DNA from: Chloranthus sessilifolius
Taxonomy: Eukaryota; Streptophyta; Magnoliopsida; Chloranthales; Chloranthaceae
DNA length: 64,000 bases
Assembly (NCBI GenBank): GCA_021018995.1
Contig: CM037593.1
Span: 32,935,810-32,999,809 of the forward strand
Reading direction: 5' to 3'
A program made the translations under genes and the position numbers. Below the pieces are notes generated by a model that saw nothing but the letters and a program-made list of their open reading frames with translations, searched no databases and was not told the DNA's origin. Positions 10,350 to 64,000 of this stretch are shown here, piece by piece (position 1 is the stretch's first letter; every line of letters begins with the position of its first letter).

Positions 10350-12016
10350 TGTGCAACCGTGGGAATCGATGAGATCCCGTCGCGACGATGCGCTCTCTAG
10401 CGATAAAAATATAGAGTAGTCACCAGGAGCTTTCGGTGTCCCGGGATACCTAGTTCATTTTTATGAGCACTGAAGTGCTAAAAATATGACTCTGAATCCG
10501 GTCTACACCAAAGGCTCTTGGGTAGGGGCTTCGGTTATCGATCGGGAAGGTGTTAGGCACCCGATCAACCCACTTAGCGTGGTCTCTACTTATGGCTAAA
10601 AATAAAATGATGTAAAAGACAAGGAAACGGTTCCCTCTTGCCTAAATGGGCCTCCAATCCTATTTGTGCCCCTCCGTTCCTACCAAAAATTCGGCGGCGT
10701 AACAGCACAAATGAAAGAGTAGGGAATGCAAAAAAGAGATAGGAGAAGAAAGGGGAGAGCCGGAGCCCTCGGGCCCTTGTAGCACCATAGGAGAGCCTTG
10801 CGTGGCTTGCTTTGATAAGCTCTTGAAGGTTTTGTATGGTGAAAAATGAGGTTCTAACTCCTAGGACTTGAAGCTAAGAGGTAGGGGAAGGAGGCTAGGG
10901 GATCACACACACCTAGGCTAAGGGTTTTGGATGTAAGAACAAGCTTGAAATGAGGTTGAGAGGTTCTGGAATTTGGGTGAAAATAGTGCACAAAAGGGAG
11001 GAAAAACTTCTCACTTTGAGCTCTTTCTCTCTTAAGCAAATTTCTCTACCCTTAAACCAAGGGGAGGGGGGCTCTATTTATACGAAATGGATGGATTAGG
11101 AGGCTACTTAGAGGCTAAGTAAGATTAGGAATTAGGTAATGGGCCATCTAAGGTTTCCTAGGATTTTAAGAGCTTGGAAAAGTGTGAAGGATCCTCCAAT
11201 GGTGGATGATGGGGTGAGGCCTTAAGCCACTTAAGGGGTTGCAAATAGGTAGTGAATGGGTGCAACAGAACTAGCAAAACACACCCCAAAGGTCAAGGTG
11301 GTCAACAAGTCAAACCCTAATTACGATTTTCAGGGAAAATTCCAATAGTTACTGTTTATATGTATGGTAAAATAGTAAAATAGTTATGAACAGTAGCCTG
11401 GAAGTTGGCTACTATAAAGGTCAAGGTGGTCAACAAGTCAACAGGCAAATGTACAGTAAAACAGTAACGAACAGTAGCCTGGAAGTTGGCTTCGCGAGGG
11501 GTGGGGGGACCCATTTATACCTAGCGCAACTATTAGTTGCACCAGGCCATTTCTAGAGAAAAAAGACCTGGCGCAACTATTATTTGTGCCAGGCAAATCC
11601 AGGGGGAAAATGGCCTGGCGCAACTATTAGTTGCGCCACGCAAAAATCCCTCCAAAAGGGCCCGATTTTCAAATGGTCATAATGTTTGATATACAACTCT
11701 GATTGAGGTGATTCTTAGCTCATTGGAAAGCTGGAGAAGTCCTCTTTCCAATGGTATATAATATGATATTAGTAAAAGATCTCAACTAGTTATGGTGCAC
11801 CACTCTTTATCCATTTCTCGGGAAGGTTAGGTTTATGGGTTCTAAGGGTCGGGGCTGGTTTCTAAAGGTTTGGGATAGGTTCCTAAGGGATCTAGGGTGA
11901 TTCCTAAGGGTTTAGGGTGATTCCTAAGGGTCCTATACTTGCCATCAAAAGCTCAGAAATGCGCCTCTCTCGAAATGTGTTTCGATTGGGCCTTGGGCCA
12001 AATTTGAGTGTCTACA
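10350..12016 (-). repeat. E1 5' LTR (1,667 bp)
   Basis: Read on the minus strand it opens TGTAGACACTCAAATTTGG and ends GGTTGCACA just before the primer site. It is clearly homologous to the E3 LTR (54277-55836), about 80 percent by eye. The U3 part holds three palindromes (11521-11639); a TATA box TATAAATAGA lies at 11073-11082 on the minus strand. A short internal duplication (AAGGTCAAGGTGGTCAACAA near 11290 and again near 11415) is absent from E3. Small ORFs on either strand here are not genes. Confidence 0.9.
11521..11639. promoter_or_regulatory. Three 25-bp palindromes at 47-bp spacing in the E1 LTR
   Basis: Copies are at 11521-11545, 11568-11592 and 11615-11639, exactly 47 bp apart. Each has the arm CTGGCGCAACTA or a one- or two-base variant and its mirror. 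The cluster lies about 440 bp upstream of the LTR TATA box on the minus strand, where an enhancer-like element would be expected. Confidence 0.8.
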
Positions 12017-42176: not shown

Positions 42177-44596
42177 TGTAACAACCCTAAAATCTAGAAC
42201 ACGAACCTGACTATTTCGATCTACGTGCCCGGCACGGAAATCGAGACCGATTAAAAAATTTAGAATTTATATTAATTGAGATAAAGTTACACCATGGTTA
42301 GATGAGTTCACCTGTGTAATTTCATTTGAATCGGAGTTGGGTAAAGAGTCAGTGTAGCACGTTGCGTCGTAGCGACCGTGTTCGTGCTCCACACCGGAAC
42401 ATAAACTAAGGGAAAACAGAAATATTTGTTTATTAGCTTATAAGAGAAGGAAGGGAGACCTAGAGGAAGTTCTTCTTCTTCTTCTTCTTCCCCTTGCCCT
42501 AGTTACTCTAACAGCTAGGGAGTCTGTAGCTAGGTGGGTTTTCAAGAGGGTTTTTGTATAAAACAGGGTTAGCAAGATTGAAAGGTGAGTTTCCTAAGCT
42601 AGGGTATGTAGAGATCAATGGATTAAGCTTAAGTATGGTTTGTGTGTGTGTGAAGTCTCTGCATGCTGAACCAGAGCTAAAAGGTTGCTCGTCGAACTCG
42701 GATCGGTGATAAACTACGAGAGCTTGATCCGAAACCCTCATCCGGAGTGATTTGCCGAAACCCCGAGGGGGCCACATAGAGGTGAGCTCTCTTGTTTAAA
42801 ATGGGCAGTTGGATGCCCTAAATATAGGTTCTGTATGAATATTTAAGATTATAATGAATTTTTGGAAGAAAAATAAGTTAGAAAAATATTGTTTGGTGAA
42901 CTCCATTAATGGCAGAAATTTTGTTGATCTTATTGATCGATCAACAAGGTGTTGATCGATCACTGAGTGTGGAATTGATCGATCAACAGTGGTGGTGATC
43001 GATCAATTTATATATATAGTATATGAACAGTACTGGCAGAGAGTTGGTGAATTTTGGGTTAATATTAGTGATCGATCAATTGACTGGGTATTGATCGATC
43101 AACAGTGGTGGTGATCGATCAACAAGGGTGTTGATCGATCAATACAGAGCCCATTGATCGATCAACCAACATGGTGATCGATCAATTGTATACAATATAT
43201 ACAAACAGAGAGTTGGTTAAACAAGTTTGTGCTTTGGTGATCGATCAACAAGGGTGTTGATCGATCAATAAAGAGTTCATTGATCGATCAACAAGGTATT
43301 GATCGATCAATAAACCCTGTTTTCAGACAGTTAGAAAATTTATATGTAAGAACCACTGGACATTGTGCCAGTTCACAATCTGTCACTCTAACACCTAGAG
43401 TAACATGTTTATGGTCTAGGATCAGACTAAGATGCCTTGAAAAAGCTTTGGATTTGCTTAGAAGGAGCTTGATCCGAGGTAGGGGAATTCAACCGAAATT
43501 GCATTTATTTTTGATCTCATGGATTATATCTGTCATACATATCTCAGCATAGTTTAATTCTGTTTTAAAAGCATGTTTAGCATATGTATGAGTATTCTAT
43601 TATGTACTTGATCCGACATTTGATATCCGTATCCGAAATCCGAATTCTGTTAAGTATGATAAGTATGCATGTGATTTGAGGTTTGATATTCAGTAAAAAT
43701 CCCACCGACTCGGTATATCCGCTTCAGCACACTTGTGCATTTGCTTTGTAATCCTCGGCACAATTGCACTCCATGTGTGGGCATTGTTGCAATTCTGAAA
43801 TTGTTCATGTGAGCATGATGGTTGGGATTATCCATCGGACCAAATCGCTACCACGTGCTATACTCACGGGAGTTACTTAAGTATACTATACTAAGTCATT
43901 ATATGTTGTATTCATCAATTATGCATCGCTTTTGGATAAATGTCTCATGTTTTATACATCCTTGCATATTTTCAGCTTTGTTCTTTGATGACCATGTTAT
44001 GCAATTAGAATGCAAATTTATTTGGAATTCTTCTATTGAGCTAGGATGTAGCTCACCTGCTTTTGTAAACATTTAGGTTCGAGGCGGTAACTCCCTGCAG
44101 ACGAGAGCGACCTCTATCACTGATCCCGAGGCGGAGGTTGAGGACGAGGAGACTGACGTCAAATGTGACTTTTACCCATAGACTGGGTATAGCTTAGACA
44201 TTTTTGGGGTTTTATGTTTGTTTGGAGACTTTGGATTATGTGTGCCTGGTGGCCACTTTTGTATTAATTTTTGTAGATATTTTATTTCTTTTATAGTGTT
44301 ATTATACATTCTATCGGAACTATCATTGGGAACCATTGTTTGGGTGATGGATGTCTGTCACCGATGGTTCTTTTTGGTTCCTTTTTGAGGATGTATACTT
44401 TTTACATTTATCAATGAAGGTTTATCTATTGTTCTTACTTTTAGATTGATTCATTAGATGACTCTACTTATCGCTGTGGGATTTTATCTGTATATTTCCG
44501 CTTTATATACAGATATTGTGTGATTCGTCCTAGGGATCATCCAGAGCATGATCCTGATGGCACGGATTTCTGAGCAAAGAAATCCGGGCTGTCACA
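42177..44596 (+). repeat. E4 5' LTR (2,420 bp)
   Basis: It opens TGTAACAACCCTAAAATC and ends GGGCTGTCACA, the standard ends of plant Tekay/Del LTRs. A possible TATA box (CTTATAAGAG) is near 42438, followed by a CTT-rich stretch. An array of TTGATCGATCAA palindromes fills 42933-43310. The short open blocks inside are not genes. Confidence 0.95.
42933..43310. promoter_or_regulatory. Fourteen TTGATCGATCAA-type palindromes in the E4 5' LTR
   Basis: The core GATCGATCA occurs fourteen times in 378 bp. Several copies are the full 12-bp perfect palindrome TTGATCGATCAA, others have GTGATCGATCAA or end in CAC. Spacing varies from about 20 to 60 bp and three words, CAACAAGG, CAACAGTGG and CAATA, recur after the core. 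I do not recognise the motif as a described site. Confidence 0.9.
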
Positions 44597-44598
44597 GT

Positions 44599-44610
44599 TG
44601 GTATCAGAGC
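44599..44610 (+). other. E4 primer-binding site
   Basis: TGGTATCAGAGC starts two bases after the LTR end. It is complementary to the 3' end of plant initiator methionine tRNA, the usual primer of this lineage. Confidence 0.95.
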
Positions 44611-44702
44611 CTAGATGTTAGGTTGAACTACGGGTTCAGGTTGGATTGTTTTCACAATCTATGTACTGATCAATGTTGTTGTTTTCACAATGACAGACCA
44701 GT

Positions 44703-45910
44703 ATGGGCCCTAAGTTCAGAGGAGGGCACGGCAGAGGTAGAACAGGTCATAGAGAGATTCCTCTGAGGGATGTGCCCGAGGTCATAGGCTCGTCGAGGGG
44801 CTTGGAGTTCCTCTCACAAGCAAATGTGGTTCCATTGGGACCCAGAGGAGGTAGAAGGAGAAATGAAGAGAGGATGGAGCAGGTGTTGGAAGCATTAGCT
44901 ACCAACGCCGCCGCCAGACAATGCGTTAGCTCATCAGTACTAGACCACCCCATCACCGTGGATTTATGAGTTTAGGAGAATGAGACCTCCTAACTTCTCG
45001 TGTCAAACGGATCCCATTGAGGCGTAGGATGGATAGAAGAGATGGAAAAGCTCTTTGAAGTGTTACTGACAGTGACGAGAGAAAGTGCGTTGGGCCACTT
45101 TCAACCTGGATGGTGACGCCTGACCTCGTGGAAGTCGGTGTCACAAAATAGACAGAGAGAGTTTCTCACACTCCTTGGACATGGGAGGAGTTTACGGAGG
45201 TGTTTTATCACAAATACTTCCCGAAAATTGTGAGGCATCAATGGGAGGTGAAATTCATAGAGTTGAAGCAAGGCGCCATGTCAGTGAGAGACTATGGAGC
45301 AGAGTTCGATAGGTTGGCTAGATTTGCACCTCAACATGTAGCCACGGAGTTGATGAGAGCAAGGAAATTCCAACTTGGCCTGAGACAAAATTTGCAGAAA
45401 GATGTCGCCATGTGGGAAATGGAGACTTATGAGGGAGTCATGGCCAAGGCTCTTATAGCTGAAGAAGAAAACCAGAAGCAATTCTCTTGGAGGGACAAGC
45501 AGGCGAGAGAGAGACCATTCCAAGGGCAATCTCAGGATACAGAGCAGAACAAGAGGGCTAGATTTTCCAGACCTCCGAGATACCCTACGCACTCTCGACC
45601 GGCGATTTCTGGACCGAGTTCATATCAGAGAGCAGCAGCGCCTACATCTTCTAGATCATTTCGACCAGCTGGATCTTCTGGTAGCGGGGCCTCAGTGACT
45701 CAGGGACCTTCAAGAGTCTCGTCCTTCACTCCGGCCGCGATATGTGCAAAGTGTGGGAAACCACACAAGACAGAGGACTGCAGGAGAGAGACAGGGGCAT
45801 GCTTCAGGTGTGGCAAGATGGGCCATTTAATCAGGAACTGCCCAGAGGAAGGAAGGGATGAGGAGCGGTCCGGATCGGTATCGACGATCATGCGATCATC
45901 TCGACCGTAG
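44703..45910 (+). pseudogene. E4 gag remnant with two zinc knuckles
   Basis: The first open block starts MGPKFRGGHGRGRTGHREIP (44703). The main block 45200-45910 has the Gag core (FIELKQGAMSVRDYGAEF, LARFAPQHV, ARKFQLGLR) and two CCHC knuckles, CAKCGKPHKTEDC and CFRCGKMGHLIRNC. The knuckles bind the element RNA during packaging. This is standard for Tekay/Del elements. Fossil with a few breaks. Confidence 0.92.
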
Positions 45911-47990
45911 TTCAAGGTCGCATATGCCTATGCCACCGATGCTCTGACATCAAATGACATCATTCAAGGTATGATTAGAATTCAAGAGATATGGTGTTGT
46001 TTGATATAATGAACTGGAAAATTGGAAATATATAAATTAATTGATTTATTTTGATTATAATAGTACACATAAACCTACATCTAAAAGCGTTACGATAATG
46101 TTGATATTGGTATATAGGTGAAATTTGGCCGTATAGGAGTTGCGATATTTGCTTCCATAGAGCACGAGCCACGATAGACCAGGGCTCCACACATTCTTTC
46201 TGCGGCCTCAATTTACAAAGGAATTGAGTGCCACTTGACAACTAGATTTTATCTGACAGTGTCAATCCCCAGGTAGTCGGTGAATGCACTCACTGTGTGT
46301 AAATCAGTGGTAGTGGCAGTAGATGATCATGAGACACGGGCAGATTTGATTCTGTTAGATATGAAAGGATTTGACATCATTTTGGGAATGGACTGGCTAT
46401 CTGCTTACCACGCAAGTGTGGATTGTCTTCGGAAGATGGTAGTTTTCCGCCCTCCAAAGGAGCGACCCTTTAGATTCTTCGGAGTGACGTCTAAGGTAGC
46501 TCCATTGATATCCGCTATTCGGGCGGAGAGGATGATGAAGAGTGGATGCAGTGGATATATAGCCTTCCTACAAGAGCAACGGGAGAAGACAAATGTGATA
46601 TCCGATATTCCCATTGCATGCGAGTATTCCGATGTATTTCCTGAGGATTTATTGGGACTACCACCAGATCGGGAGGTGGAGTTTGTAATCAATCTAATCC
46701 CAGGCACTGAACCGGTATCAAAGGCTCCCTATCGAATGGCTCCAGCAGAATTACAAGAGCTAAAGGAGCAATTGCAAGAACTACTTGACAAAGGTTTTGT
46801 GCGACCTAGTGTGTCTCCTTGGGGAGCACCAGTATTGTTTGTCAGGAAGAAGGATGGTTCAATGCGCTTGTGCATCGACTATCGGTAGTTAAACAAGTTG
46901 ACGATTAAGAATCGTTACCCGCTTCCTAGAATCGATGATCTGTTTGATCAATTGCAAGGAGCGAGGTTCTTTACGAAGATCGACTTGCGGTCGGGTTATC
47001 ATCAACTATGAGTCAGAGCTGAAGACATTGAGAAGACGCTCGTTAACCGGATATGGGCACTATGAATTCCTTGTTATGCCATTTGGATTGATTTAACGAT
47101 CTTTGCATCTTTCATGGACTTGATGAACTGAGTGTTTAAACCACACTTGGACACATCAGTAGTGGTATTTGTAGATGACATCCTTGTCTATTCCAAGACA
47201 AAGGAGGAACATGAAGAGCATCTACGTGTTACTTTGCAGACCCTCAGAGATCACAAACTTTATGCGAAGCTCAGTAAGTGTGAGTTTGTGCTTGACCAAG
47301 TTAGTTTCTTGGGTCATATCGTCTCTGCAAAGGGTATTACAGTGGATCCAGCTAAGATTGAAGCCGTTGATGAATCGGGAAAGAGGGACAAGAATGTAGG
47401 TTCGTAGTTTTCTTGGTTTGGCCGGATACTACAGACGGTTCGTAGAGGGGTTCTCTAGACTATCAGGTCCACTCACTCAGCTCACTAAGAAGAATGCTAG
47501 ATTTGATTGGACTGATCAGTGTGAGAAGAGCTTCCAGGAATTGAAGACGCGTCGACTCTGACCGGTTGGCAATACCTTCCGGAGGAGGTTTTGCTATCTC
47601 TGATGGCGCATCATATGGTGGTTTGGGTTGTCTCCTCAACCAAAGACAAGAAGGTTATCGCTATGGCTCTAGACAAATTTGAAGGAGCATGAAAAGAATT
47701 ATCCGACTCATGACTTAGAGTTGGTGCGGTAATCTTTGCCTTGAAGATTTGGAGGCACTACTTATGCGGTGAGACGTTTGATATCTTCACCGACCACAAA
47801 AGCCTTAAGTATTTGTTTACCCAGAAGGACTTAAATATGCGACAGCGCAGATGGATGGAGTTCTTGAAAGATTATGATTGTTCCATCCAGTATCACCCTG
47901 GGAAGGCCAATGTTGTGGCAGATGCTTTGAGCAGAAAGTCTTTCTTGTCACCTTATCACCAGAATACAAAGGTGGCATCTACTTGAGGAC
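45911..47990 (+). pseudogene. E4 protease, reverse transcriptase and RNase H remnant
   Basis: Protease end: [19 protein letters not shown] (46370-46430). RT: the lead-in [19 protein letters not shown], then [31 protein letters not shown] (near 47170) and [11 protein letters not shown]. RNase [21 protein letters not shown] and [12 protein letters not shown] (47741-47986). All are typical chromovirus sequences in canonical order. Fossil with several breaks. Confidence 0.93.
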
Positions 47991-47996
47991 CTGGCC

Positions 47997-49546
47997 TTGT
48001 GCGATGCATTGATAGACGTCAAAGGTTCAGGGGCATTGATGGCTACCATAGTGATACGGCCCACGTTGTTTGATAACGTGCGTAGGCTCCAGATGATTGA
48101 TGATGAGCTTATGGCCATTCGCAAGGATGTGATCAACGGGATTCGACCTGATTTCTCCATCAAGGATGATGGTACTTTACTGTTTCGAGATCGAATGTGC
48201 ATACCAGCTGATAAAGATCTTAAGGAAACTATTCTAGAAGAAGCACATAAGTCAACGTATGCTATACATCCTGGGAGTACCAAGATGTATCAAGATCTCA
48301 AGCGCAGTTTTTGGTGGAGAGGACTGAAGAAAGATGTAGCAGATTTTGTGTCTCGATGTTTGGTCTGCCAACAGGTGAAAGTAGACCATCGAAATTCAAT
48401 AGTTGTTACAACCTCTACCAAGATGCAGAATGGAAATAGCCATTTCTATGGATTTCATCTTGGGGTTGCCAAGCACATTGAGGAAGAACAATGCCATCTG
48501 GGTCATTGTTGATAGGTTGACCAAATCTGCACACTTCTTGCCATACCGCACTACGTTTACAGCTAGCAAGCTTGCAGAGCTGTACATGAAGGAGATAGTC
48601 CGGTTACACGGCATACCAGTCGGTATAGTATGTGATAGAGATCCGCTCTATACATCGCAGTTTTTGATTTTGGCATGGGTACTAAATTGGAGTTCACCGC
48701 TTCATCCTCGACAGATATGGGCGTGAGAGAGTGAACGGATCATCGAAGATATGTTGCGAGCTTGTATGTTGGACTTTCAAGGTTCATGGGATGAACATCT
48801 ATCTTTGATCGAGTTCGCTTACAACAACAGCTATCAGTCGAGTATCGGGATGGCGCCTTATGAAGCCTTGTATGGACGTCGATGTAGATCTCCATTGAAC
48901 TGGGAGGAAGTCGGTGAGAAACTCATTTTGGGACCTGATATCGTGGAAAGTACAACCGTGGCAGTTCGGTTGATCCACGAAAGATTGAGGGTTGCTCAAA
49001 GTCGCCAAAAGAGTTATGCCGATCTTCATCGGATACACGTAGAGTTTCAGGTATCCTTTAAGGCATTCCCGAGGTTACGATTTTCTAGTTTAAGTAATTA
49101 GTTAGGTAATTAACACTTGTTTTCAGGTTGGAGACAATGTGTTTGTAAAAATATCGCCAACAAAGGGTGTCATGCGCTTCGGAAAACGAGGAAAGTTGAG
49201 TCCTCGGTATATTGGCCCCTTTGAGGTACTCGGACGGGTTGGCGAGGTTGCGTATCGGATTGCTTTGCCACCACAGTTGGCGAGCATGCATAACGTTTTT
49301 CATGTATCGATGCTGCGACATTACGTGCATGATCCGACACATGTCTTGGATTTTCAACCGATTGATTTACAAGAAGATCTAACCATGGTTGAAGAACCGA
49401 TAGAGATCTTGAATCAACGGGATCAAGTTTTGAGGACCAAATTAATTCTGCTAGTACTTGTCAAATGGCGGAATCATACTGCTTCAGAAGCCACTTGGGA
49501 ACGTGCTGCCGAGATCCGTGAACAGTATCCACACTTGTTCACTTGA
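47997..49546 (+). pseudogene. E4 integrase and chromodomain remnant
   Basis: Integrase landmarks are HPGSTKMYQDLKRSFWW, the CLVCQQVK zinc ligand pair, WVIVDRLTKSAHFLP, and SSIGMAPYEALYGRRCRSPL. The GPY-type module (SPRYIGPFEVLGRVGEVAYR) is in 49139-49300, and the last part (EILNQRDQVLR, VKWRNHTASEATWE, IREQYPHLF) is a chromodomain. Chromodomains steer integration to heterochromatin, which fits the location. Fossil with several breaks. Confidence 0.93.
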
Positions 49547-49745
49547 TGCGCAAGGTGAATTTTCTTTTGAGTTTGTTTCTAAATTCATCATCGTGATTAT
49601 AACTTGATGATTAGATTTATCTCATTGACTCGATTTGTCGTATATTTTGGGTCATGTATGTGATGTACATGTATCGGTATCTTTCCATTACGGTTAAGTC
49701 ATTATAACGGTCCGATTGTAACGAGAAATTTTTACAACAGGTCCA

Positions 49746-49898
49746 TTGATCGATCAACAGGGAGGTTGGTGATCGATCAACAAGTGGACCATTGATCGAT
49801 CAACATTGAATGTGGTGATCGATCAACGGGTCGGATTCAGTTTTTGAACTTAAAATTTTTAGTGGTGATCGATCAACCACCAATGAATTGATCGATCA
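49746..49898. promoter_or_regulatory. Six TTGATCGATCAA-type palindromes upstream of the E4 extra ORF
   Basis: The same core GATCGATCA as in the LTR array occurs six times within about 150 bp, outside any LTR. It lies directly upstream of a TATA box (49916-49924) and about 240 bp upstream of the extra ORF. The words flanking the core (CAACAAG, CAACAGG) match those in the LTR. Confidence 0.9.
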
Positions 49899-49915
49899 CC
49901 AGGGCACTTATGTGT

Positions 49916-49924
49916 TATAAATAG
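49916..49924 (+). promoter_or_regulatory. TATA box of a putative internal promoter in E4
   Basis: TATAAATAG is a strong plant TATA match, 18 bp after the last palindrome and about 210 bp before ATG 50134. A start of transcription near 49955 would give a leader rich in pyrimidines. Inferred from sequence only. Confidence 0.6.
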
Positions 49925-50133
49925 GGTTTTGAACGGTCATTTGCTCTATCCTATTCACGTGAACGAGCAAAGGGCTTTTGCACTCCGACCTTTCAACTTC
50001 CCTTCCGACTCACTTCCGGCCATTCCCATCCTTCCTCCGGCTTGATTCGAGTGGACATCGCTCCATTCATCCGGTAAAATTCTTGTTTGCTTCCTTTCGA
50101 GTCTCATTTTCATTCTTTTGTAAGGATTTGACC

Positions 50134-51600
50134 ATGGGACCTCGCACGAAGAATGCTTCGCGTAAGGTACCCACGTCTCGGGCTCGTACACCGGTACCGC
50201 CCACCATTCCCGTTCTCTCGCCAACCGTGCCACCCATGGCACCGGTTTCGACCACTGTCCCAACCGTTCCCGCGCCCGTTACGCTCCCCATCGAGCGTGA
50301 AGTCCCCAAAGAGTGGTGGGCTTCCAAAACCTTTCTACCCGAGTATAGGTTTATTTCTACTCTCTATGATGATCGCCCCGAAATGGCTTGGGCCATGGGC
50401 TACCTTCAGAAGTTAGGGTTAAAACCCTTGCTTGAGCCATTTCATGATCACTATTGCCCTCGCATAGTGCGGCTCTTTTCCAAAACCTTCGTTGGGGGAT
50501 TCAGGACACCGACTCGTCACTACCATTGACGGTTTGAATATAAATTCAACCGATTCCATGTTGCCGCTGCCCTAGAGTGTGCAAATCACATTTGATACGC
50601 TGGCTTGGCGCCACCGTATGAGAAAGATGTTCCTTTTGCTGATGTCATCGCCAAGATGACCAACGGAAAGCATGGGAAGGGCCAATCCATTTCTAGGGCC
50701 CAACTACCCGACAAACTGTGGATGCTTGATACTTATTTCAAGTGTGCACTTGTTCCGTTTTTGCACAAGTCCTCACGGACTGGTGTTGTCCAGCTGGCCC
50801 TCTTTTCGGCCTTTGAGGACCGCTGGTATCCTATGGCCGAGGTCGTGATTGAGGGCATCATCACCTCCACGACCTTATGACCGAAAAGGCGGGCGGAGCC
50901 ACAAAACAAATTCCCTATGCTCGCTTAATCACGGTGGTGGAGCAATATGCTGCTCTACGCGAGCACTATAGCTTGGCACCTAATGAGCCACGCTTAACCA
51001 ACAACACCAAAGTCTTTAAACTAAAAGACTGGACCAAGAGTTATAATCTTTTGGTCAAGAGACTACCCGAGCCCGAGGAGGAGGGTGACGACGAGGCTGC
51101 TGAGCCCGTTATTCCAGAGGGTGGGGCACCTGTTGTACCAGCTCCTAGTGGGGGGGAGGCCCCATCTGATCAGCCACCTCAGCCTGAGGTGCTACCTCGA
51201 CCTGCTGCTACCCCATCACAGCGACCACCGCGTTCTTCTTCGTCACGTCTTCTACACCGCACTGCTGCCCTATCCTCGCCCATCCATCACATTTTGACGC
51301 CTTGTCATGTCCTCGAGGGTAACAAACGCATACATGAGCGCTTGGATGGGATTGAGCTATTTCAGCGTCAGGTTCATCGGCGGCTCGACTACGCCGAGGG
51401 CATGTTAGAGCTCTTGATGCAGCAGTCATACATGACGACTTCGACGCCGATGATTGCGCATGCCCGTGAGCACGTCGTAGATCCTCGCACTTACACCCCT
51501 GTTCCTACTCCGCCCACCATGCCGGTCTCCGTCGGGACTGGACCATCTGGCGAGAGTGGACCATCCGATGTCCCCACAGGTATAACTATACTACTCTATA
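50134..51600 (+). CDS. E4 extra ORF after pol, function unknown
   Basis: Three open blocks in sequence (to 50529, 50605-50880, 50877-51665) encode one protein type. Order: Pro/Thr/Val-rich start (MGPRTKNASRKVPTSRARTP), a globular part (EVPKEWWASKTFLPEYRF, PRIVRLFSKTFVGGF, LDTYFKCALVPFLHKSSRTG), a Pro/Gly-rich acidic linker (EPEEEGDDEAAEPVIPEGG) and a helical end (HERLDGIELFQRQVHRRLDY). The layout recalls plant transposon-linked proteins with a globular half, linker and coiled coil (Pfam PF20167 type), but similarity is weak. A standard Tekay element has no gene here. It has its own TATA box and palindromes. It is broken. Confidence 0.6.
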
Positions 51601-51789
51601 ATATTTGTAGACTACGTATATATCCGCATTTACATTACTCTGCATATTATATACATTCTGTTTAGCATGTCTAAATTTCTCTGCATCGTACGTAGACTGC
51701 ATCCTCTATATTATCTCGGTCTATTAGTCTTAGAAAACCTCTGTTCCTTAACCGCACCTATTAGACATTTTCGAGGACGAAAATTCCTA

Positions 51790-51801
51790 AGGGGGGGATA
51801 A
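51790..51801 (+). other. E4 polypurine tract
   Basis: AAGGGGGGGATAA lies directly before the 3' LTR, preceded by the conserved TTTCGAGGACGAAAATTC. It primes plus-strand synthesis. This context is typical of Tekay/Del elements. Confidence 0.92.
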
Positions 51802-54215
51802 TGTAACAACCCTAAAATCTAGAACACGAACCTGACTATTTCGATCTACGTGCCCGGCACGGAAATCGAGACCGATTAAAAAATTTAGAATTTATATTAA
51901 TTGAGATAAAGTTACACCATGGTTAGATGAGTTCACCTGTGTAATTTCATTTGAATCGGAGTTGGGTAAAGAGTCAGTGTAGCACGTTGCGTCGTAGCGA
52001 CCGTGTTCGTGCTCCACACCGGAACATAAACTAAGGGAAAACAGAAATATCTGTTTATTAGCTTATAAGAGAAGGAAGGGAGACCTAGAGGAAGTTCTTC
52101 TTCTTCTTCTTCTTCCCCTTGCCCTAGTTACTCTAACAGCTAGGGAGTCTGTAGCTAGGTGGGTTTTTGTATAAAACAGGGTTAGCAAGATTGAAAGGTG
52201 AGTTTCCTAAGCTAGGGTATGTAGAGATCAATGGATTAAGCTTAAGTATGGTTTGTGTGTGTGTGAAGTCTCTGCATGCTGAACCAGAGCTAAAAGGTTG
52301 CTCGTCGAACTCGGATCGGTGATAAACTACGAGAGCTTGATCCGAAACCCTCATCCGGAGTGATTTGCCGAAACCCCGAGAGGGCCCACATAGAGGTGAG
52401 CTCTCTTGTTTAAAATGGGCAGTTGGATGCCCTAAATATAGGTTCTGTATGAATATTTAAGATTATAATGAATTTTTGGAAGAAAAATAAGTTAGAAAAA
52501 TATTGTTTGGTGAACTCCATTAATGGCAGAAATTTCGTCATTATTGATCGATCAATAAGGTGTTGATCGATCACTGAGTGTGGAATTGATCGATCAACAG
52601 TGGTGGTGATCGATCAATTTATATATATAGTATATGAACAGTACTGGCAGAGAGTTGGTGAATTTTGGGTTAATATTAGTGATCGATCAATTGACTGGGT
52701 ATTGATCGATCAACAGTGGTGGTGATCGATCAACAAGGGTGTTGATCGATCAATACAGAGCCCATTGATCGATCAACCAACATGGTGATCGATCAATTGT
52801 ATACAATATATACAAACAGAGAGTTGGTTAAACAAGTTTGTACTTTGGTGATTGATCAACAAGGGTGTTGATCGATCAATAAAGAGTTCATTGATCGATC
52901 AACAAGGTATTGATCGATCAATAAACCTCGCTGCATGCTAGAAAATTTATATGTAAGAACCACTGGACATTGTGCCAGTTCACAATCTGTCACTCTAACA
53001 CCTAGAGTAACATGTTTATGGTCTAGGATCAGACTAAGATGCCTTGAAAAAGCTTTGGATTTGCTTAGAAGGAGCTTGATCCGAGGTAGGGGAATTCAAC
53101 CGAAATTGCATTTATTTTTTATCTCATGGATTATATCTGTCATATATATCTCAGCATAGTTTAATTCTGTTTTAAAAGCATGTTTAGCATATGTATGAGT
53201 ATTCTATTATGTACTTGATCCGACATTTGATATCCGTATCCGAAATTTGAATTCTGTTAAGTATGATAAGTATGCATGTGATTTGAGGTTTGATATTCAG
53301 TAAAAATCCCACCGACTCGGCGGTATATCCATTTCAGGCACACTTGTGCATTTGCTTTGTAATCCTCGGCACAATTGCACTCCATGTGTGGGGCATTGTT
53401 GCAATTCCTGAAATTGTTCATGTGAACGACGATGGTTGGGATTATCCATCGGACCAAATCTGGCTACCACGTGCTATACTCATGGGAGTTACTTAAGTAT
53501 ACTATACTAAGTCATTATATGTTGTATTCATCAATTCTGTACTGTTTTGGATAAATGTCTCATGTTTTATACATCTGTTGCATATTTTCAGTTTTGTTCT
53601 TTGATGACCATGTTATGCAATTAGAATGCAAATTTATTTGAAATTCTTCTATTGAGCTAGGATGTAGCTCACCCTGTTTTTGTAAACATTTAGGTTCTGA
53701 GGCGGTAACTCCCGGTACGGAGAGCGACCTGCACTATCACCGATCCCGAGGCTGAGGCTGAGGACGAGGAGACTGACGTCTCACGATTTTTTACCCATAG
53801 ACTGGGTATAGCTTAGACATTTTTGGGGTTTTATGTTTGTTTGGAGACTTTGGATTATGTGTGCCTGGTGGCCACTTTTGTATTAATTTTTGTAGATATT
53901 TTATTTCTTTTATAGTGTTATTATACATTCTATCGGAACCATCATTGGGAACCATTGTTTGGGTGATGGATGTCTGTCACCGATGGTTCTTTTTGGTTCC
54001 TTTTTGAGGATGTATACTTTTTACATTTATCAATGAAGGTTTATCTATTGTTCTTACTTTTAGATTGATTCATTAGATGACTCTACTTACCGCTGTGGGA
54101 TTTTATCTGTATATTTCCGCTTTATATACAGATATTGTGTGATTCGTCCTAGGGATCATCCAGAGCATGATCCTGATGGCACGGATTTCTGAGCAAAGAA
54201 ATCCGGGCTGTCACA
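51802..54215 (+). repeat. E4 3' LTR (2,414 bp)
   Basis: It is nearly identical to the 5' LTR, apart from scattered substitutions and small length differences that are densest in the stretch matching 43690-44160. The palindrome array is at 52544-52921 with thirteen intact cores and one changed. Confidence 0.95.
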
Positions 54216-54276: not shown

Positions 54277-55836
54277 TGTACAACCGTGAGATTTTTTTAC
54301 GATCCCGTCACGGCGATGCGCACTCTCATGAATATTTAGAGTCACCACCCGGAGCTTTTGGTGTTCCGGAAAACCTAAATCATTTTTATGAGCATCAAAG
54401 ATCTAAAAATATGACTTTGAATCCAATCCACACCAAAGGCTCTTGGGTAGGGGCTTCGGTTATTGATTGGGAAGGTTTTAGGCACCCGATCAACCCGCTT
54501 AACGCGGTCTCTACTAATGGCCAAAACTAAAATGAAGTAAAAGAAAAGAAAATAGTTTGCTTTTGCCCAAATGGGCTTTCAATCTTATTTGTGCCCCTCC
54601 GTTCCTACCAAAAATTTGACAGCGTAACGGCACAAATGGGAGGATAGGAAATGCCAAAAAAAGATATAGGAGAAGAAAGGGGAGAGCCGGAGCCCTCGGG
54701 CCCTTGTACCACCGTAGAAGAGCCTTGCGTGGCTTCCTTTTGATGAGCTCTTGAAGGCTTTGTATGGTGTAGAATAGGATTCTAACTCCTAAAGCTTAAA
54801 GCTAAGAGGTAGAGTGAGGGGTCTAGGGGGTGATACACACCTAGGCTAAGGGTTTTGGATGCAAGAACAAGCTTCAAATGAGGTTGGGAGATTCTATAAT
54901 TTATGTGAAAATGGTACACAAAAGGGAGGAAAAACTTCTCACTTTGAACTTTTTCTCTCTTAAGCAAATTTCTCAACCCTTAAACCAAGAGGTGGGGGTC
55001 TTTATTTATAGGATATGGGTGGGTTAGGAGGGTGTTTAGATGCTAATCAAGATTAGGAATTAGGTAATCTAACATCTAAGGTTTCCTAGGGTTTTTGGAG
55101 CCTTGAAATATGAGAGAAGGTCCTCTAATGGTGGATGATGGGGTGAAACTTTAGGCCACTTAATGGGTTGCAAAAGGGTGCAACAGAACTATCAAAACAT
55201 ACCCCAAAGGTCAAGGTGGTCAACAAATCACGAATTTTGAGATAAAAAACTAGGGTTATTGTTCATATGCTTGGCACAACTATTAGTTGTGCCAGGTAAA
55301 TGTACAGTAAAACAGTTCTGTACAATGCCGGGAAGTTGGCTTTGCGAGGTGGGGGCCCACATTGATACTGGCGCAACTATTAGTTGCGCCAGGCTTAAAT
55401 TTTGGGAAAAATAGTTTCTGGGGAGAAATGGCCTAGCGCAACTATTAGTTGGCCAAATCCCCAAGGGGGTCAACTGAAATTACTCTTTTACCCTTTAGGT
55501 TCGGGTTGCCATATCTTTTGATGTATAACTCTGATTGGGGCGATTCTTAAACTGTTGGAAAGCTGACAACTTCTACTTTTCAATGGTATAAGACTTGATC
55601 ATAGTAGAAGACTATAGCTGGTCCTGGTGTACCACTCCTTTTCCAAGGCTCGAAAGGTTAGGTTTAGGTTCAGAACAGGTTCTAAGGGTTGGGATTGACT
55701 TCTAAAGGTTCGGAGCAGGTTTCTAAGGGCTCTAGGGTGGTTGCTAAAGGTTCCATACATGCCATCAAAAGCTCAGAAGTGCACCTCTCTCGAAATATGT
55801 TTCGATTAGGCCTTGGGCCAAATTTGGGTGTCTACA
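54277..55836 (-). repeat. E3 3' LTR (1,560 bp)
   Basis: It opens TGTAGACACCCAAATTTGG on the minus strand and ends GGTTGTACA. A TATA box TATAAATAAA is at 55001-55010. Palindromes of the 25-bp type are at 55271-55295, 55368-55392 and, shortened, 55433-55454; their spacing (97 and 65 bp) is less regular than in E1. Confidence 0.9.
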
Positions 55837-57600: not shown

Positions 57601-57606
57601 AAGTGC

Positions 57607-57726
57607 CTAGCGCAACTATTAGTTGCGCTAGGCCAATAGGGGCCTTAAAATGGCGTGGCGCAACTAATATTTGCGCCAAGCCAAAAATGGGCACAAATTT
57701 GCTTGGCACAACTAATAGTTGCGCAG
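57607..57726. promoter_or_regulatory. Three 25-bp palindromes at 48-bp spacing upstream of E3 antisense gene 1
   Basis: Copies at 57607-57631, 57655-57679 and 57703-57726 start exactly 48 bp apart. The motif is the same as in the E1 and E3 LTRs. The cluster lies upstream of a CTC/TTC-rich stretch (57780-57810) that looks like the start of a transcript leading to gene 1. Confidence 0.75.
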
Positions 57727-57934
57727 GCTTGGCTGGGGACCAATTTAAACAGCCCAGGCTCAGGCTGTGGGGTTTTATTTCAAAATTTTCTCCCCCTTTT
57801 CTCTTGAAACCGAAAACTGACCCCTTTTATGGTTCCTTTACATTGCATCTATGCGTGCTTCATTGCCATTATTCGCTTGCGTTAATCATTCGCCATCTTG
57901 CACTAGATCAAATACCCCATTTCTTTTAAAAGGT

Positions 57935-58982
57935 AACCATTAAAATTCTTTTTTTCCTTGATTTTTCTCAAATTTTCTTGCAAATATGATCATGATCTTG
58001 TATTATTTGCATAATGGTTTATTTTTAGCTCCGAATGTATTTATTAATGGTGTGTGGATGATTTCTTATGATCAATGCCCTATTTTTTTGTTATTTTATG
58101 GCTTTATTGGTGCCTATATGTTTTGTTTGTTGTTTTTTTTTTTTTTTGTGTTTTTGTTTGTTTTTGTTAAGGAATGGATGCATTTTTTTTTATTGGTTTT
58201 CTTTATTTTATGGGCATAAAAGAAAGGGCTCTTTGTTTTTTGAAAGAAGGGTTTTTTTTTTGGCTTTTGATTTTTGGAGCATAAAGAAAGGATTCTTTGT
58301 TTGTTTTTCTTTTTTGTAAACATAAAAGAGGGATTTTTTTGGGTTTTGATTGATTTTTTGTTTTTTGTAAAGTAACAAGATTTTTTTTGGTTTCGATTTT
58401 TTGAAGTATAAGGACTTTTATTTTTTTGTTTCTTTTTTTTGTTTTTGTAAACAAAGTAAAAGGATTTTTTTTGTTTTGATTTCTTTAAAGTATAAGGACT
58501 TTTTTTTTTGTTTTGTTTTTTTCTTTTTTTCGTTTTATTTTTGTTTTTTTTTTATAAACATAAAAGAAGAGTTTTCTTTTTGGGTTTTAATTTTTTGAAG
58601 CATAAGGTTTTTTTGTGTTTTTTTTCGTAAAGCATTAGAGAAGGACCCCCTTTTTTTGTTTTTTGATTTTTAAAGAAACGACATCAATGATATGTTTTAT
58701 TTTGACTCGCTTTATTATTTTTAAACATGAAAAGGGGAATTTGTTTAATTTTTATTGACCTCTCTCCCCCCCCCCTTTTTTTTTTTTTAAGAGAAGGGAA
58801 GAGATTTTTTTTTGCATTTTGATTTTGATTTTTGATGATTTTTTTTTTTTTTTGCATGTGTATCTTTATTTCTGAAAATAAACGAGAAAATGGTGAGCAT
58901 TCTTACCTCCCCTTGACGCAAAGTATATCATAGTTCTTTTTCCATTGACCTGATTTGATGTGATTGCCTTTTGTTGCCCCAG
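57935..58982 (+). other. T-rich spacer with short repeats, likely intron in the leader of E3 antisense gene 1
   Basis: The stretch is strongly T-rich with degenerate units of about 60-100 bp (CATAAAAGARRG then TTTTGATTTTTTG and AGTATAAGGACTTTT) between 58200 and 58620. It starts with AAAAGGTAACC and ends with TTGTTGCCCCAG before ATG 58984, as expected of a plant intron. The many open blocks here are simple-sequence artefacts. Confidence 0.5.
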
Positions 58983-58983
58983 C

Positions 58984-60934
58984 ATGTCAGGCGATGATGA
59001 GCATATTCCTGAGGAGGGCCACGAGGAGGGGCCCGAGATAGTATATGGTTCGCGAGGGGAGCAGTTCCTCTGGGTAGAGCGGAGAGCGGGCCCATGGCTT
59101 GAAATGTAGGGCGAGGCTGCCCGAGTCGGCCTCTTACATCAACAGCATACCCATATTTCAAATTTTGGAATAGCGGGCAAGGTAAAAGACAGGTTCAATT
59201 TATTTCCTTTGTGCAGCTTTAGTTTACTTTCGCAATCTGATGCGCATTTCTTTGGGTGCAGGACCTGCCCAACATTGTATTCCGTGGGGGGTGGCTCGAT
59301 TTTCAAGATTTCTACCTCTACGTCCCTCCTGTTGTGAAGCTCTTGTTGGCACAGGTGGGCTTTGGGGAGTTTCTGTCTTGCCCTGCTATGAGGGCCAATG
59401 CCACCTACCTGAAGGCCTTGATTGAATAGTTTTGCCTTGAGACGATGACCTTCCATATGTCGTACGCTGAGATGACCTTGACGTCCGTTGATTGGGCAAT
59501 GATTATGGGCATTAGGATGGCAGGGATACCGATAGCTGGCCTCGTGGTGCCGAGTAGAGAGGACATCATCCGATTATTGAGGCCTATCCCCCTCGTGGGT
59601 AAACTCATGGTACTGAGGTCAAGATGACCTGGCTGACTGCCCTTTATATGATTGACAAGTTGGTGGTTTTGGGGCATCCAGACAGGGTGCTCTATATCAC
59701 GCCCGAGCGGGTGATTGTTCTGGCCCGCATTACTCTTCTGATCCTACTGGGTAAGACCTTATTTACCAATGCAAGCGGTGGCTGGGTTAGCCTAGTGTTG
59801 CTGAGCGTCATGGACAATTGGGGTGACGTCCATAGGTATGATTAGGGCGGGGCCGGGTACACATGGCTGATGTATAACTTAGCTCGGGTCATGACCAGGG
59901 ACTCCAAATCTGTGGTTGGTTTTTGGGCTACTATGCCATACCTGTGGACCCTCCTGCTGATCTGTGGGACCCTATAGGCAGTGTTGAGGAGCTCGCAGCG
60001 GCCTTTATCAACAATGGGCTTCTGATCAATGCCCTCTTTGTGCCCGGAGACTATCATGCTTGGTATGAGTGCCTGCCTTACCGGGTCATCTTCCCGCGCT
60101 TTGTACCTAGCGCCAATTCCCTTGCATTTGGTGGCCCCCTTGGTCAGGTAATTCTCCTCAGCTTGGACTAGTTCCCCTTATGTTCTAATTAAGCCTTTTT
60201 TTTTTATTTTTTTCTTTCAATGCGGATCCCTATTTTGTTCACAGTTTGCTCATAGAGATGACTCTGATGGCAAAGGCAGGATAGGTGCAACGTACACGTC
60301 AGGAGGGGATCCTTCTGGTGCCGGCCCCTCTGGTGCAGGTCCCTCGGGCGAGGGTTCTTCTGGTGTTGGATCGTTGGGTACCTCCCATGTCGGTGCCCCT
60401 AGTGGTGACCCGCCCGTGGTTTACGGGACCTTTCGACGCCTTGATGATAGCTTCCTTTCGGGCCTCTGCGCTGATGTGGATAGGCAAGCGTGATTCTCTG
60501 CTGAAGCGGGCCGTGTCCTTCCTCCTGAGGTGATCCCAGGGGTAAGTCCTCTGACGACCCATCTCTTTCTTGTTTCGATCTCCTTTTGCCCATGCTTTAT
60601 GATTGCCTTAACAGCTAATATTGTATCTTTCTGAACGTAGGATTTTGACTCGGCCATGGAGTATGTGGCGTATCATCGCCACATTGCGGATCTCAGGGAG
60701 GTGGAGATGGTGAGTACCCTGCTGCTCTGCTTCTCCCACTTGTTTTATTTATCACTTGTCCCTCAATTGGTCATGATTTCCAATTTCGACTATGCCTTGC
60801 AGCGTGCACGTACTAAGGAGTCGCGCTCCTTGCTTAGTAGGATTTTACAGGCTTGGTCCCGAGTGGGGGATATGCAGACTTTCCAGAGCTCCTCTCGTCA
60901 TCAGAAGAAGTCAAAGGGCGCGGGCAAGGAATAG
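58984..60934 (+). CDS. E3 antisense gene 1: plant-mobile-domain-like protein
   Basis: ATG 58984 opens an acidic start (MSGDDEHIPEEGHEEGPEIV). Later blocks (59262-60147, about 60243-60541, 60642-60708, 60803-60934) are spaced like exons. The key block reads FYLYVPPVVKLLLAQVGFG, ETMTFHMSYAEMTLTSVDWA and IMGIRMAGIPIAG, matching the plant mobile domain pattern (THTFHLP.GEMT.TL.DVA..LGL.IDG), then LVVLGHPDRVLYITPERVI. The last part is basic and helical (YALQRARTKESRSLLSRILQ). It runs against the element's own strand and is related in kind to the E2 antisense gene. The domain may interact with silencing factors in host members; here nothing is shown. It looks degraded. Confidence 0.6.
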
Positions 60935-61016
60935 GCTTTAGTTTCTGCTTTAAAACTCAGTACTCTTGGGATTGGATTTTGATTTCTTAGATGGTTTGAG
61001 ATGGATGATGTGCCAC

Positions 61017-61020
<4 letters not shown>

Positions 61021-61053
<33 letters not shown>

Positions 61054-61055
61054 TT
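61021..61055. repeat. TA microsatellite
   Basis: About 35 bp of TA repeats with one G. It lies in the spacer between the two E3 antisense genes. Confidence 0.9.
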
Positions 61056-61335
61056 GAAAATATTTTTAGTGCTTCTGTCTTGATTGCATGCCATGGTTTC
61101 CTTGCATCGTATCTGTTTTCCTGCATGACGTGTTTGCCAAATGCTCTCAGAAAGTGACTTTTTGGGTCGCATGCTTTGATGTAGGATCAATCCTGCACAT
61201 AAACAAAGTGATTTCCAAACCGTTAGCGATAAAATATTATCGAATGTATATATAAAATGAACAATAGGAGTGAAAGAAAAATGAAAAGTCCCCCCAATTA
61301 GGCCTCGAGATGGCTGAGGAGGGGGGATCTTTAGT

Positions 61336-61454
61336 TTGGCCCAACTATTAGTTGCGCCAGGCTAAATCTCAGGGAATTTGTATTGGCGCAACTAATAGTT
61401 GCGCTAGGAAAAAATGGGGACAAAATGAACTGGCAAAACTAATAGTTGCGCTAG
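61336..61454. promoter_or_regulatory. Three 25-bp palindromes at 47-bp spacing upstream of E3 antisense gene 2
   Basis: Copies at 61336-61360, 61383-61407 and 61430-61454 start exactly 47 bp apart. A TATA-like word TATATACCC follows at 61481, and the coding block opens at 61516. This is the tightest promoter-like arrangement of the motif in the window. Confidence 0.8.
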
Positions 61455-61515
61455 GCTTAGCCTGGGGAGCTGTGGGTCCTTATATACCCGAGTCAGCCAA
61501 AAAATCCTCCCTTTT

Positions 61516-63019
61516 TTGTTTGACTTGGCCCCTTTGACCGATTCTTTTTGTTCTTGCTTTTCCAAGGCGGGTCCATCACCATACATCGATTTTTATCTTC
61601 TCAAAAGGTCTTTGTACGTTCATGGACTCGCTTTCCAACCCGCCCTAACATGGAGGGCCCAGAACCAAATTACCCCTTCCTTGGGCTTGGGACCCAAGTT
61701 TCTAACACATTGGGTCGGGAGCTTGAATGAGAGTGAGCTCGCTGACTTGGAGCGCCTTCGGCTATCTCGCCTTTCTTCCTTTCTTGAGGTTTCCCCACGG
61801 TGGGACCTTCTTCATGCCACCACATCCTTTTGGAACCCGAGTGGTCATGTGTTCCGATTTAGGGATCGGGAGATAACTCCTACTCTTGAGGAATTGTCTA
61901 ACTTGTCGGGTTTGAAGCTTCACAGGGGCCTTTCCAGAATTGTACCAAAGCCGGGCTATGCCAAAACCATTCACCTTACCCTGGGCTTGAAGAAAAATGA
62001 ATATGAGAAAAGTCTCATTGGGGGGCCTACTAGGTGTTTGATGAAATTCCTGAAAGAACTTTTTGGTGACGAAAGTCTCCGAAAACTGCCGACTCAAAAC
62101 ATCTTCAACGTGAAAGCATTCTCTCTTGGCCTTATCTCAGAAATCCTTTTCTTTACCAAGGGAGAGAGCTTCTCTTTGGCAATTTGCGATATTTTGGCTG
62201 AGTTGGAGGCAGGCCGATCTATGATGCATTTGGTGCTTGCTGAACTTTTTCGGTGTCTTGATGCGTTCTCCCTCGGGAAGACCAAGAATCTTGGAGGTTG
62301 CCCACTTTTGCTTCAGGTTTGGCTAGGAGAGCATCTGGCCATTTTGGGACCAATGCCCCACTTTTATCTTGCTCGAGGAGAGGTGGTCCGATGCTTTTTG
62401 GGCAGGTGCCATATGATTCCCCAGGGAGATTTGTTAGAATTGAAGCTTTGGCTGACTGGAGCGGATCTTGTAAGGAAACTTCCTTGGCTAGAGCGGACCT
62501 TCCCTGTGATTCGTTCCAGAGACCACGAGGGCATCACCCTTTTGCGGTTGACTGGCAGCACCTTCTACTTCCCATTTCAGGTGTTGCATCAGTTCGGTTG
62601 CATTTAGCAGGTGCCTTGTGAGGTGAGACCCCCTCCCTCTGTGTGACTTGATATTTTCTAGAGGGTCCTCTAGGGACATGGATCGGATTGCCACTCTCTG
62701 GGAGACGCGTCAGTCGACGCTGATGTGCGATATGGAGCAGGTTGATTTGGTTCAGTCTTCGCCTGAGTATGAGGCCTGGATATTGACTGAGCAGCCTGTT
62801 GCTGATCGTCTGGATTCAGCTGAGGGTATTGACACTGGAGGCCCCTGGACAAAGAAAGAGACGACACTCCGAGCCCGCATCGAGCTACTAGTGGATGAGA
62901 AGAGGGTCCTGCACAAGCTTTTGGCACAGGAAAAAGTTAAAGCAGAGATAGCGGAGAGTGAGGTCCTTCGTCTGAAGGGATCATTGTGTGTTGCCCTTGG
63001 AGCTACTGTTTCTTCTTGA
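61516..63019 (+). CDS. E3 antisense gene 2: DUF7745/plant-mobile-type protein with coiled-coil end
   Basis: The main block 61516-62607 is open for 363 codons, the longest undisturbed reading frame of E3 here. It contains LHATTSFWNPSGHVFRFRDR, EITPTLEELSNLSGLKLHRG, GESFSLAICDILAELEAGRS and LGGCPLLLQVWLGEHLAILG, which resemble the plant DUF7745 family, a relative of the plant mobile domain. A second block (62648-63019) gives RIATLWETRQSTLMCDMEQ and a heptad-like helix (ARIELLVDEKRVLHKLL). The true start may differ from 61516. Palindromes and a TATA-like word lie just upstream. A DNA or chromatin role would be a guess. Confidence 0.6.
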
Positions 63020-63780: not shown

Positions 63781-63790
63781 CTTTTTTACT

Positions 63791-63919
63791 CGTAGCGCCC
63801 TTTCAGGTTTTCACCTCGTCCATGGGTTTAGCTCTTTTACCCAAAGCGCCCTTTCGGGTTTTCACCTGGTCTGCATAAATTCGCTGTTTTTACCCGTAGC
63901 GCCCTTTCAGGTTTTCACC
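63791..63919 (+). repeat. Three copies of a GCGCCCTTTCRGGTTTTCACC unit
   Basis: Copies start at about 63791, 63842 and 63895 (51 and 53 bp apart). Each has CGTAGCGCCCTTTC and GGTTTTCACC nearly unchanged. The units lie in E3 just before the right edge, so more may follow. Confidence 0.85.
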
Positions 63920-64000
63920 ACGTCCATCTTGCTTTGAGCTTGTATTTTTATTTTATTTTTTCTTTTTATATTTTTTCATTTCTTTTTTCAATAGCCACGA

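Follow-up and report, generated by a model that had tools for sequence, protein, structure and literature searches.

Antisense accessory genes of plant retrotransposons are described as having no known job (PMC7264820, PMC11963269), and the subject of this report is a set of palindrome arrays in a 64,000-nt window of Chloranthus sessilifolius contig CM037593.1, where such genes are carried by putatively Tat/Ogre-like elements. Statements on published systems refer to excerpts of the papers cited. The antisense gene23 of Grande has a promoter of its own, from which it is transcribed (PMC7264820), tandem-repeat arrays of unknown function are frequent in Retand elements (PMC11963269), and an accessory open reading frame (ORF) is mentioned for the sunflower element Tekay (PMC12844716). 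Among the Plant Mobile Domain (PMD) proteins, PMD-A1 and PMD-A2 are encoded by Gypsy elements only (PMC5418596). MAIN and MAIL1 interact, affect gene expression and the silencing of transposable elements, and are required for the expression of genes enriched in the DOWN motif (PMC7156037), an example of which is CATGCAGTTT in MORC1 (PMC9899485). In VANDAL transposons the VANC motifs are located within tandem repeats, both in introns and in the region upstream of VANA21 (PMC5735166). The foamy virus regulator Tas is expressed from an internal promoter; its response elements also occur in the long terminal repeat (LTR), and the result is a positive feedback followed by activity of the LTR (PMC3798896). 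In the present window a 25-bp palindrome recurs in the LTRs, in a leader and before the accessory genes of two elements, E1 and E3, which belong to one family, putatively of Tat/Ogre-like Ty3 elements with antisense accessory genes. A third, unrelated element, E2, has the same layout with a different palindrome.

Palindrome arrays in the LTRs and before the accessory genes

All coordinates are those of the window, and the generality of the findings rests on this one window. The palindrome has the consensus CTGGCGCAACTA-W-TAGTTGCGCCAG, that is, an arm, one A or T, and the reverse complement of the arm. The first-pass annotation of this DNA had reported it in five groups, with a spacing of 47-48 bp in four of them, and both statements were confirmed. 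At up to 5 mismatches, 16 copies are present, in the five groups; 13 are present at up to 3 mismatches, compared with none in 100 dinucleotide shuffles. Intervals of 47-48 bp account for 9 of 11. A weight matrix built from the 16 copies scores them at 29-45, the next site in the window at 2.3 and the best site of 5 shuffles at 6.7, and within the window the palindrome is confined to its own family. In the four phased arrays the spacing is constant within 1 bp in all nine intervals, with spacers of 22-23 bp, for each of which a crude estimate gives 1.8-2.7 expected insertions or deletions.

The fifth group, in the E3 LTR, is out of phase. The alignment of the two LTRs (mean identity 86% over aligned columns) accounts for this, because the stretch with the middle E1 copy (11568) is largely gone from E3 and the E3 copy at 55271 is extra, with no recognisable counterpart in E1. 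Two copies are common to both LTRs, and the third E3 copy (55433) has 5 mismatches to the consensus. The U3 region of E1 also contains a duplicated stretch at 11380-11460 (AGTAGCCTGGAAGTTGGCT, GGTCAAGGTGGTCAACAAGTC) that is not found in E3, which has a palindrome copy there.

The same regions were returned by a motif-free test, in which 11-base words with at least 3 G or C that are common to the LTR and the interior of an element were clustered. The only clusters of at least 4 words are located at 6805-6918 in E1 (30 words), at 57605-57714 and 61342-61558 in E3 (37 each) and at 49743-49891 in E2 (44). E1 and E3 match each other at the arrays, as one family, and the other pairs of elements yielded two clusters of 4 words.

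E2, a chromodomain Ty3/gypsy element, was pointed to by scans for any palindrome and for tandem repeats. Its palindrome, TTGATCGATCAA, has 34 copies in the window when 1 mismatch is allowed, against an expectation of 0.3, and is arranged in one array in each LTR and one internal array (Table 1); elsewhere in the window there is one isolated near-copy. The internal array follows the chromodomain ORF and precedes the accessory ORFs. Interval lengths of 19-23 bp, near two helical turns, prevail in both LTRs and in 4 of the 5 intervals of the internal array. Several internal frames of E2 are broken, the Chromo match scores 25.0 against a cut-off of 25.1, and no Pfam family was found above cut-off in the accessory ORFs.

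Table 1. Elements, genes and palindrome arrays of the window
Feature	Position	Strand	Details
E1 leader array, four palindromes, between primer-binding site (PBS) and proline-rich ORF	6809..6976		starts 6809, 6857, 6904, 6952; intervals 48, 47, 48
E1 LTR palindromes, three	11521..11639		starts 11521, 11568, 11615; intervals 47, 47
E3 LTR palindromes, three	55271..55457		starts 55271, 55368, 55433; intervals 97, 65
Palindromes before antisense gene 1, three	57607..57727		starts 57607, 57655, 57703; intervals 48, 48
Palindromes before antisense gene 2, three	61336..61454		starts 61336, 61383, 61430; intervals 47, 47
E1 LTR (5' LTR)	10350..12016	-	ends by eye; TATAAATA at 11082 (-); TATAAATG at 11519 (-) adjoins array; PBS TGGCGACTCTGCTGGGGA just inside
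E3 LTR (3' LTR of minus-oriented Tat/Ogre-like element)	54277..55836	-	ends by eye; TATAAATA at 55010 (-); purine-rich stretch adjoins
Antisense gene 1 region	58984..60931	+	interrupted in this copy by stop codons and frame changes
Antisense gene 2, open stop-to-stop frame, PMD protein	61429..62607	+	PF10536 E 2.2e-13, 50.6 bits (cut-off 34.9)
E2, chromodomain Ty3/gypsy element	42177..54215	+	LTRs 42177-44596 and 51802-54215, 96.6% identical; target-site duplication CTTCC
E2 5' LTR array	42933..43310		14 copies of TTGATCGATCAA with 0-1 mismatch; spacing 19-23 bp in 11 of 13 cases
E2 3' LTR array	52544..52921		13 copies of TTGATCGATCAA with 0-1 mismatch; spacing 19-23 bp in 10 of 12 cases
E2 internal array	49746..49899		six copies of TTGATCGATCAA at up to 1 mismatch; intervals 23, 23, 23, 50, 23
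E2 accessory ORFs	49963..51665	+	49963-50529 (ATG 50134); 50596-50880; 50853-51665

Conservation of the motif, flanking signals and genes

The core AACTAWTA is invariant in all 16 copies of the E1/E3 palindrome, as are T2, G4, C5, T18, G19 and C22. The variable positions are the outer bases and, within GGCGC, the CpG, which is often lost. Changes in the arms number 38, of which 22 are C-to-T or G-to-A changes at CG or CHG (8/64 and 14/64 sites); the corresponding figures are 1/96 at CHH and 3/160 at A/T positions. The pattern looks like that of methylated copies decaying around a core that is conserved, with the reservation that the CHH cytosines are mostly within the core, so that constraint and methylation context are not fully separable.

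According to the first-pass annotation the arms had stayed symmetric. Each arm is near the consensus, but the two arms change without coupling: both arms carry the same-base change in 2 cases, where random re-pairing of the arms predicts 2.5 (P 0.74), and 87.5% of cells pair (22 of 176 do not), compared with 87.1% in shuffles. Co-variation of the arms as a sign of a dimer site or a hairpin was therefore rejected. Since the arms change independently, each half is kept by itself, like a DNA site with two half-sites and unlike a selected hairpin.

The statement that the palindromes outlast their diverged surroundings was upheld. The upstream regions of genes 1 and 2 contain three collinear palindromes with the centre bases T, A and A in both, and are identical at 64 of 74 motif positions, 27 of 40 spacer positions and 142 of 298 positions outside (motif vs spacer, P 0.026; motif vs outside, P 6e-10). 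Between the E1 and E3 LTRs, 40 of 45 shared motif columns are identical, compared with 210 of 285 other U3 columns (P 0.025). For the 22-nt spacers, identity is 37% from group to group and 38% inside a group, compared with 27% after shuffling; for the motifs it is 82%. Judged by these values the arrays share remote ancestry, the motif being better kept than the spacer. Among the matches listed, those that link the E3 LTR to either accessory upstream region are 20-36 nt long and barely extend beyond the palindrome; the copying of a whole LTR fragment upstream of the accessory genes is thus unsupported in E3. The E1 leader and the E1 LTR are alike over about 90 bp at 78%, spacers included, and the leader array is possibly a copied LTR fragment.

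The palindrome had also been described as marking every promoter-like site. For each array the best match to TATAWAWR within the following 48 nt was compared with 48-nt stretches of the window. The E1 LTR array has an exact match, TATAAATG, 2 bp away (background 1.7%), and the E3 LTR array has a match with 2 mismatches, TATCAATG standing where E1 has TATAAATG. TATAAATA is conserved in both LTRs, its distance from the array being 439 bp in E1 and 261 bp in E3. In E2, TATAAATAG is found at 49916-49924, 17 bp past the end of the internal array, with an exact TATAAATA there (background 1.7%). The leader array has 3 mismatches in the sense direction, with no match within 300 bp, and 1 mismatch on the other strand (background 15%), AATAAAAA being 20 bp away. 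TTTAAA (57744-57749) follows the gene 1 array at a distance of 17 bp, and TTATATACC (61480-61488) follows the gene 2 array at 26 bp; both are at background level as TATA boxes and were given no weight as promoter evidence. The arrays do precede the accessory genes, but the claim for every promoter-like site thus rests on gene order and not on promoter signals. The five array places are never all found in one element: within the window E1 contributes LTR and leader, and E3 contributes LTR and antisense genes.

E1 is minus-oriented and consists of the 5' LTR, the PBS, the leader, the proline-rich ORF, a gag-like piece (13 bits, below cut-off) and a reverse transcriptase (RT) on the minus strand. 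The PBS, TGGCGACTCTGCTGGGGA, is presumably of the Arg type. A passage on Ogre elements was used for this call (PMC9289625, excerpt). The proline-rich ORF (5224-5827) contains tandem repeats of about 24/48 bp encoding GPMAQTHQ-like units. E3 is represented in the window by its 3' LTR and two genes on the opposite strand; its pol and the left part of E1 are outside the window. A Pfam profile search with nine E3 pieces returned PMD and DUF7745 for gene 2. The upstream end of the gene 2 frame overlaps the last palindrome, and there is no ATG before the PMD in this frame. BLASTP of three gene 1 pieces (62, 65 and 97 aa) against gene 2 gave no significant match, a weak test because the pieces are short, whereas the upstream regions of the two genes retain their three collinear palindromes. 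A PDB sequence search with gene 2 gave no match. Beyond the accessory genes of E3, at the right edge of the window (63781-63927), a 51-bp tandem repeat is present, the unit of which contains CGCCCTTTCAGGTTTTCACC.

Interpretation of the arrays

The places of the arrays have in common that they are DNA in or before a transcription unit. Palindromes that are private to an element and common to its LTR and accessory upstream regions suggest an accessory product that recognises them. The preferred reading, to which a probability of roughly 45% is assigned, is that the arrays are cis-regulatory sites common to the LTR and the accessory upstream regions, probably bound by an element-encoded protein. 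One family-specific palindrome in the LTR, the leader and the accessory upstream regions would make these units switchable together. The most likely binder would be a dimeric protein encoded by the element, namely the PMD proteins in the E1/E3 family and a different accessory protein in E2. The accessory promoter would yield the factor, and both this promoter and the LTR array would be its targets; the effect would be to activate transcription or to relieve host silencing. The promoter status of the regions with arrays, the binding, the dimers, the identity of the binder and the direction of the effect are all putative. A retroelement-encoded regulon had been proposed in the first-pass annotation; the position of the arrays before the accessory genes, the persistence of the palindromes, the same layout in E2 and the PMD matches agree with it, but the uncoupled changes of the arms, the background-level TATA matches at genes 1 and 2 and the element E4 do not. 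A wider proposal would give each Ty3/gypsy lineage a private regulon, with its own palindrome in the LTR and accessory upstream regions and with products that bind, activate and de-silence; the Tat-like binder would be a Gypsy-encoded PMD pair, this would be the ancestral PMD function, and MAIN and MAIL1 would be possible descendants. Taken as a whole this proposal is speculative and is considered rather unlikely.

Several observations weigh against the preferred reading. The spacers are weakly homologous too, and the likeness between the arrays of genes 1 and 2 may derive from later copying of the array alone. At both of these arrays the best TATAWAWR match has 2 mismatches, which 56% of the window stretches equal, and when 1 mismatch was permitted, a scan returned no TATA-like match closer than 198 bp to the gene 1 array and, for gene 2, nothing over 500 bp. 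The PMD match of gene 1 (piece 59430-59624, PF10536, E 5.4e-5) is below threshold, at 23 bits compared with the curated cut-off of 34.9, and the structure model of gene 2 has a mean predicted local distance difference test score (pLDDT) of 33.5, so that DNA binding by the PMD receives no support there. Identity of the palindrome with the DOWN motif was rejected, as the sequences differ. No relatives were found in viral, bacterial/archaeal, phage, plasmid or genome contig collections, all of which are without plant genomes. In particular, the palindrome patterns were absent from viral and bacterial/archaeal contigs, which is silent on motif frequency in plants, and no match was obtained with PMD gene 2 in viral and genome contigs, with the RT piece in viral contigs and phages, or with the E1 LTR in plasmids.

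E4 is the counter-case. Its LTRs, at about 16.7-19.3k and 38.9-41.5k, contain palindromes of their own (16874-17245 and 39111-39481), which are alternating sites around CTRAAAYAATAG with steps of 30-31 and 49-55 bp, 10 being used per LTR. The interior of E4 contains no shared array, there being neither a word cluster nor a matrix match above the shuffle maxima; strong matches to the E4 matrix at 12987 and 15087 are left of the 5' LTR, outside the element. An antisense ORF of E4 (33078-33740, minus strand) has a PMD match of E 2.6e-23 and 83.2 bits, with no recognisable shared array upstream. E4 was thus tested and dismissed as a third example. The sharing of one sequence element between the LTR and the region upstream of the putative regulator is found in the E1/E3 family and in E2 and not in E4, and the layout holds for two of the three element families in the window.

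The positions of the arrays need no element-encoded factor, and plant LTRs commonly use host factors. The palindrome could then be the site of a dimeric host transcription factor, an enhancer hijacked for the LTR and the accessory genes with no binding by an element protein. Neighbouring elements have unrelated palindromes, however, each confined to its family apart from the one isolated E2 near-copy, and element-encoded specificity fits this better. The frequent loss of the CpG of GGCGC also speaks against an E2F-like site, which was set aside on this ground. A host-factor enhancer is considered rather unlikely. Hairpins in the genomic RNA, or cruciforms, serving packaging, splicing or reverse transcription, would suit a motif of which all array positions are expected in the genomic RNA. 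The four copies tested, out of 16, all fold as hairpins of 8-13 bp as single-stranded DNA (z -5.4 to -7.6). Cells changed on both sides number 2, compared with 2.3 in shuffles, and with the unpaired cells given above and no compensatory excess a role of RNA or single-strand structure is very improbable.

Drift of minisatellite-like arrays that moved between the LTR and the interior through template switching or recombination and have no regulatory role would fit the frequent arrays of Retand (PMC11963269, excerpt) and the fact that Tandem Repeats Finder calls the leader, E1 LTR and gene 1 arrays. The weak homology of the spacers, the alignment of the E1 leader with the E1 LTR over about 90 bp including spacers, the differences between the LTR copies of E1 and E3, the missing TATA support at genes 1 and 2 and the lack of a shared array in E4 point the same way. 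Simple drift is harder to reconcile with a motif that is better conserved than its spacers, with E3 LTR matches to the accessory upstream regions that, among the matches listed, hardly exceed the palindromes, and with internal arrays upstream of accessory genes in two lineages. Drift is judged unlikely, more so than the host-factor enhancer.

Comparison with known systems

A palindrome array common to LTR and accessory upstream regions was not encountered in the literature searched, which included few subscription papers or preprints. Searches with four 10-base words of the motif gave, among the matches listed, none on plant transposons, and the words of the E2 palindrome had a chloroplast genome as their sole match. 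Like gene23 of Grande and TRP28 of Retand (PMC7264820, PMC11963269), the accessory genes of E3 are antisense and presumably located between pol and the 3' LTR. They differ in encoding a PMD instead of gene23 or TRP28, and an LTR-shared palindrome array is absent from the excerpted descriptions of those elements. The PMD is one of the domains encoded by antisense accessory genes, and the shared palindrome is a concrete DNA target with which such genes can be tested.

In MAIN and MAIL1, too, PMD proteins are tied to a promoter motif, that of genes whose expression falls on PMD loss (excerpts of PMC7156037, PMC9899485). The DOWN motif differs from the palindrome, and direct binding is not demonstrated there either. 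If the palindrome is bound by an element protein, the origin of these plant silencing factors becomes testable.

The VANC system of the Arabidopsis Mutator-like VANDAL elements resembles E1/E3 in combining accessory genes with arrays of element-specific short motifs in non-coding regions. It belongs to DNA transposons, whereas the elements described here are LTR retrotransposons; its motifs are 8-9-mers in the same direction (YAGTATTAY for VANC21, AGTTGTCC/AGTTGTAC for VANC6) in place of a 25-bp palindrome; and the accessory protein here is a PMD protein, DUF1985 being found in none of the nine E3 pieces searched. A similarity to VANC6 AGTTGTCC was set aside, as the shared AGTTG is within chance (about 0.15). 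Foamy virus Tas is alike in that the LTR and the upstream region of the regulator contain the same sequence element. The accessory genes of E3 are antisense, are carried by a plant element and encode another protein family; for Tas, binding is shown. Should an element protein bind the palindrome, plant retrotransposons would possess a self-encoded switch like foamy virus Tas or VANC.

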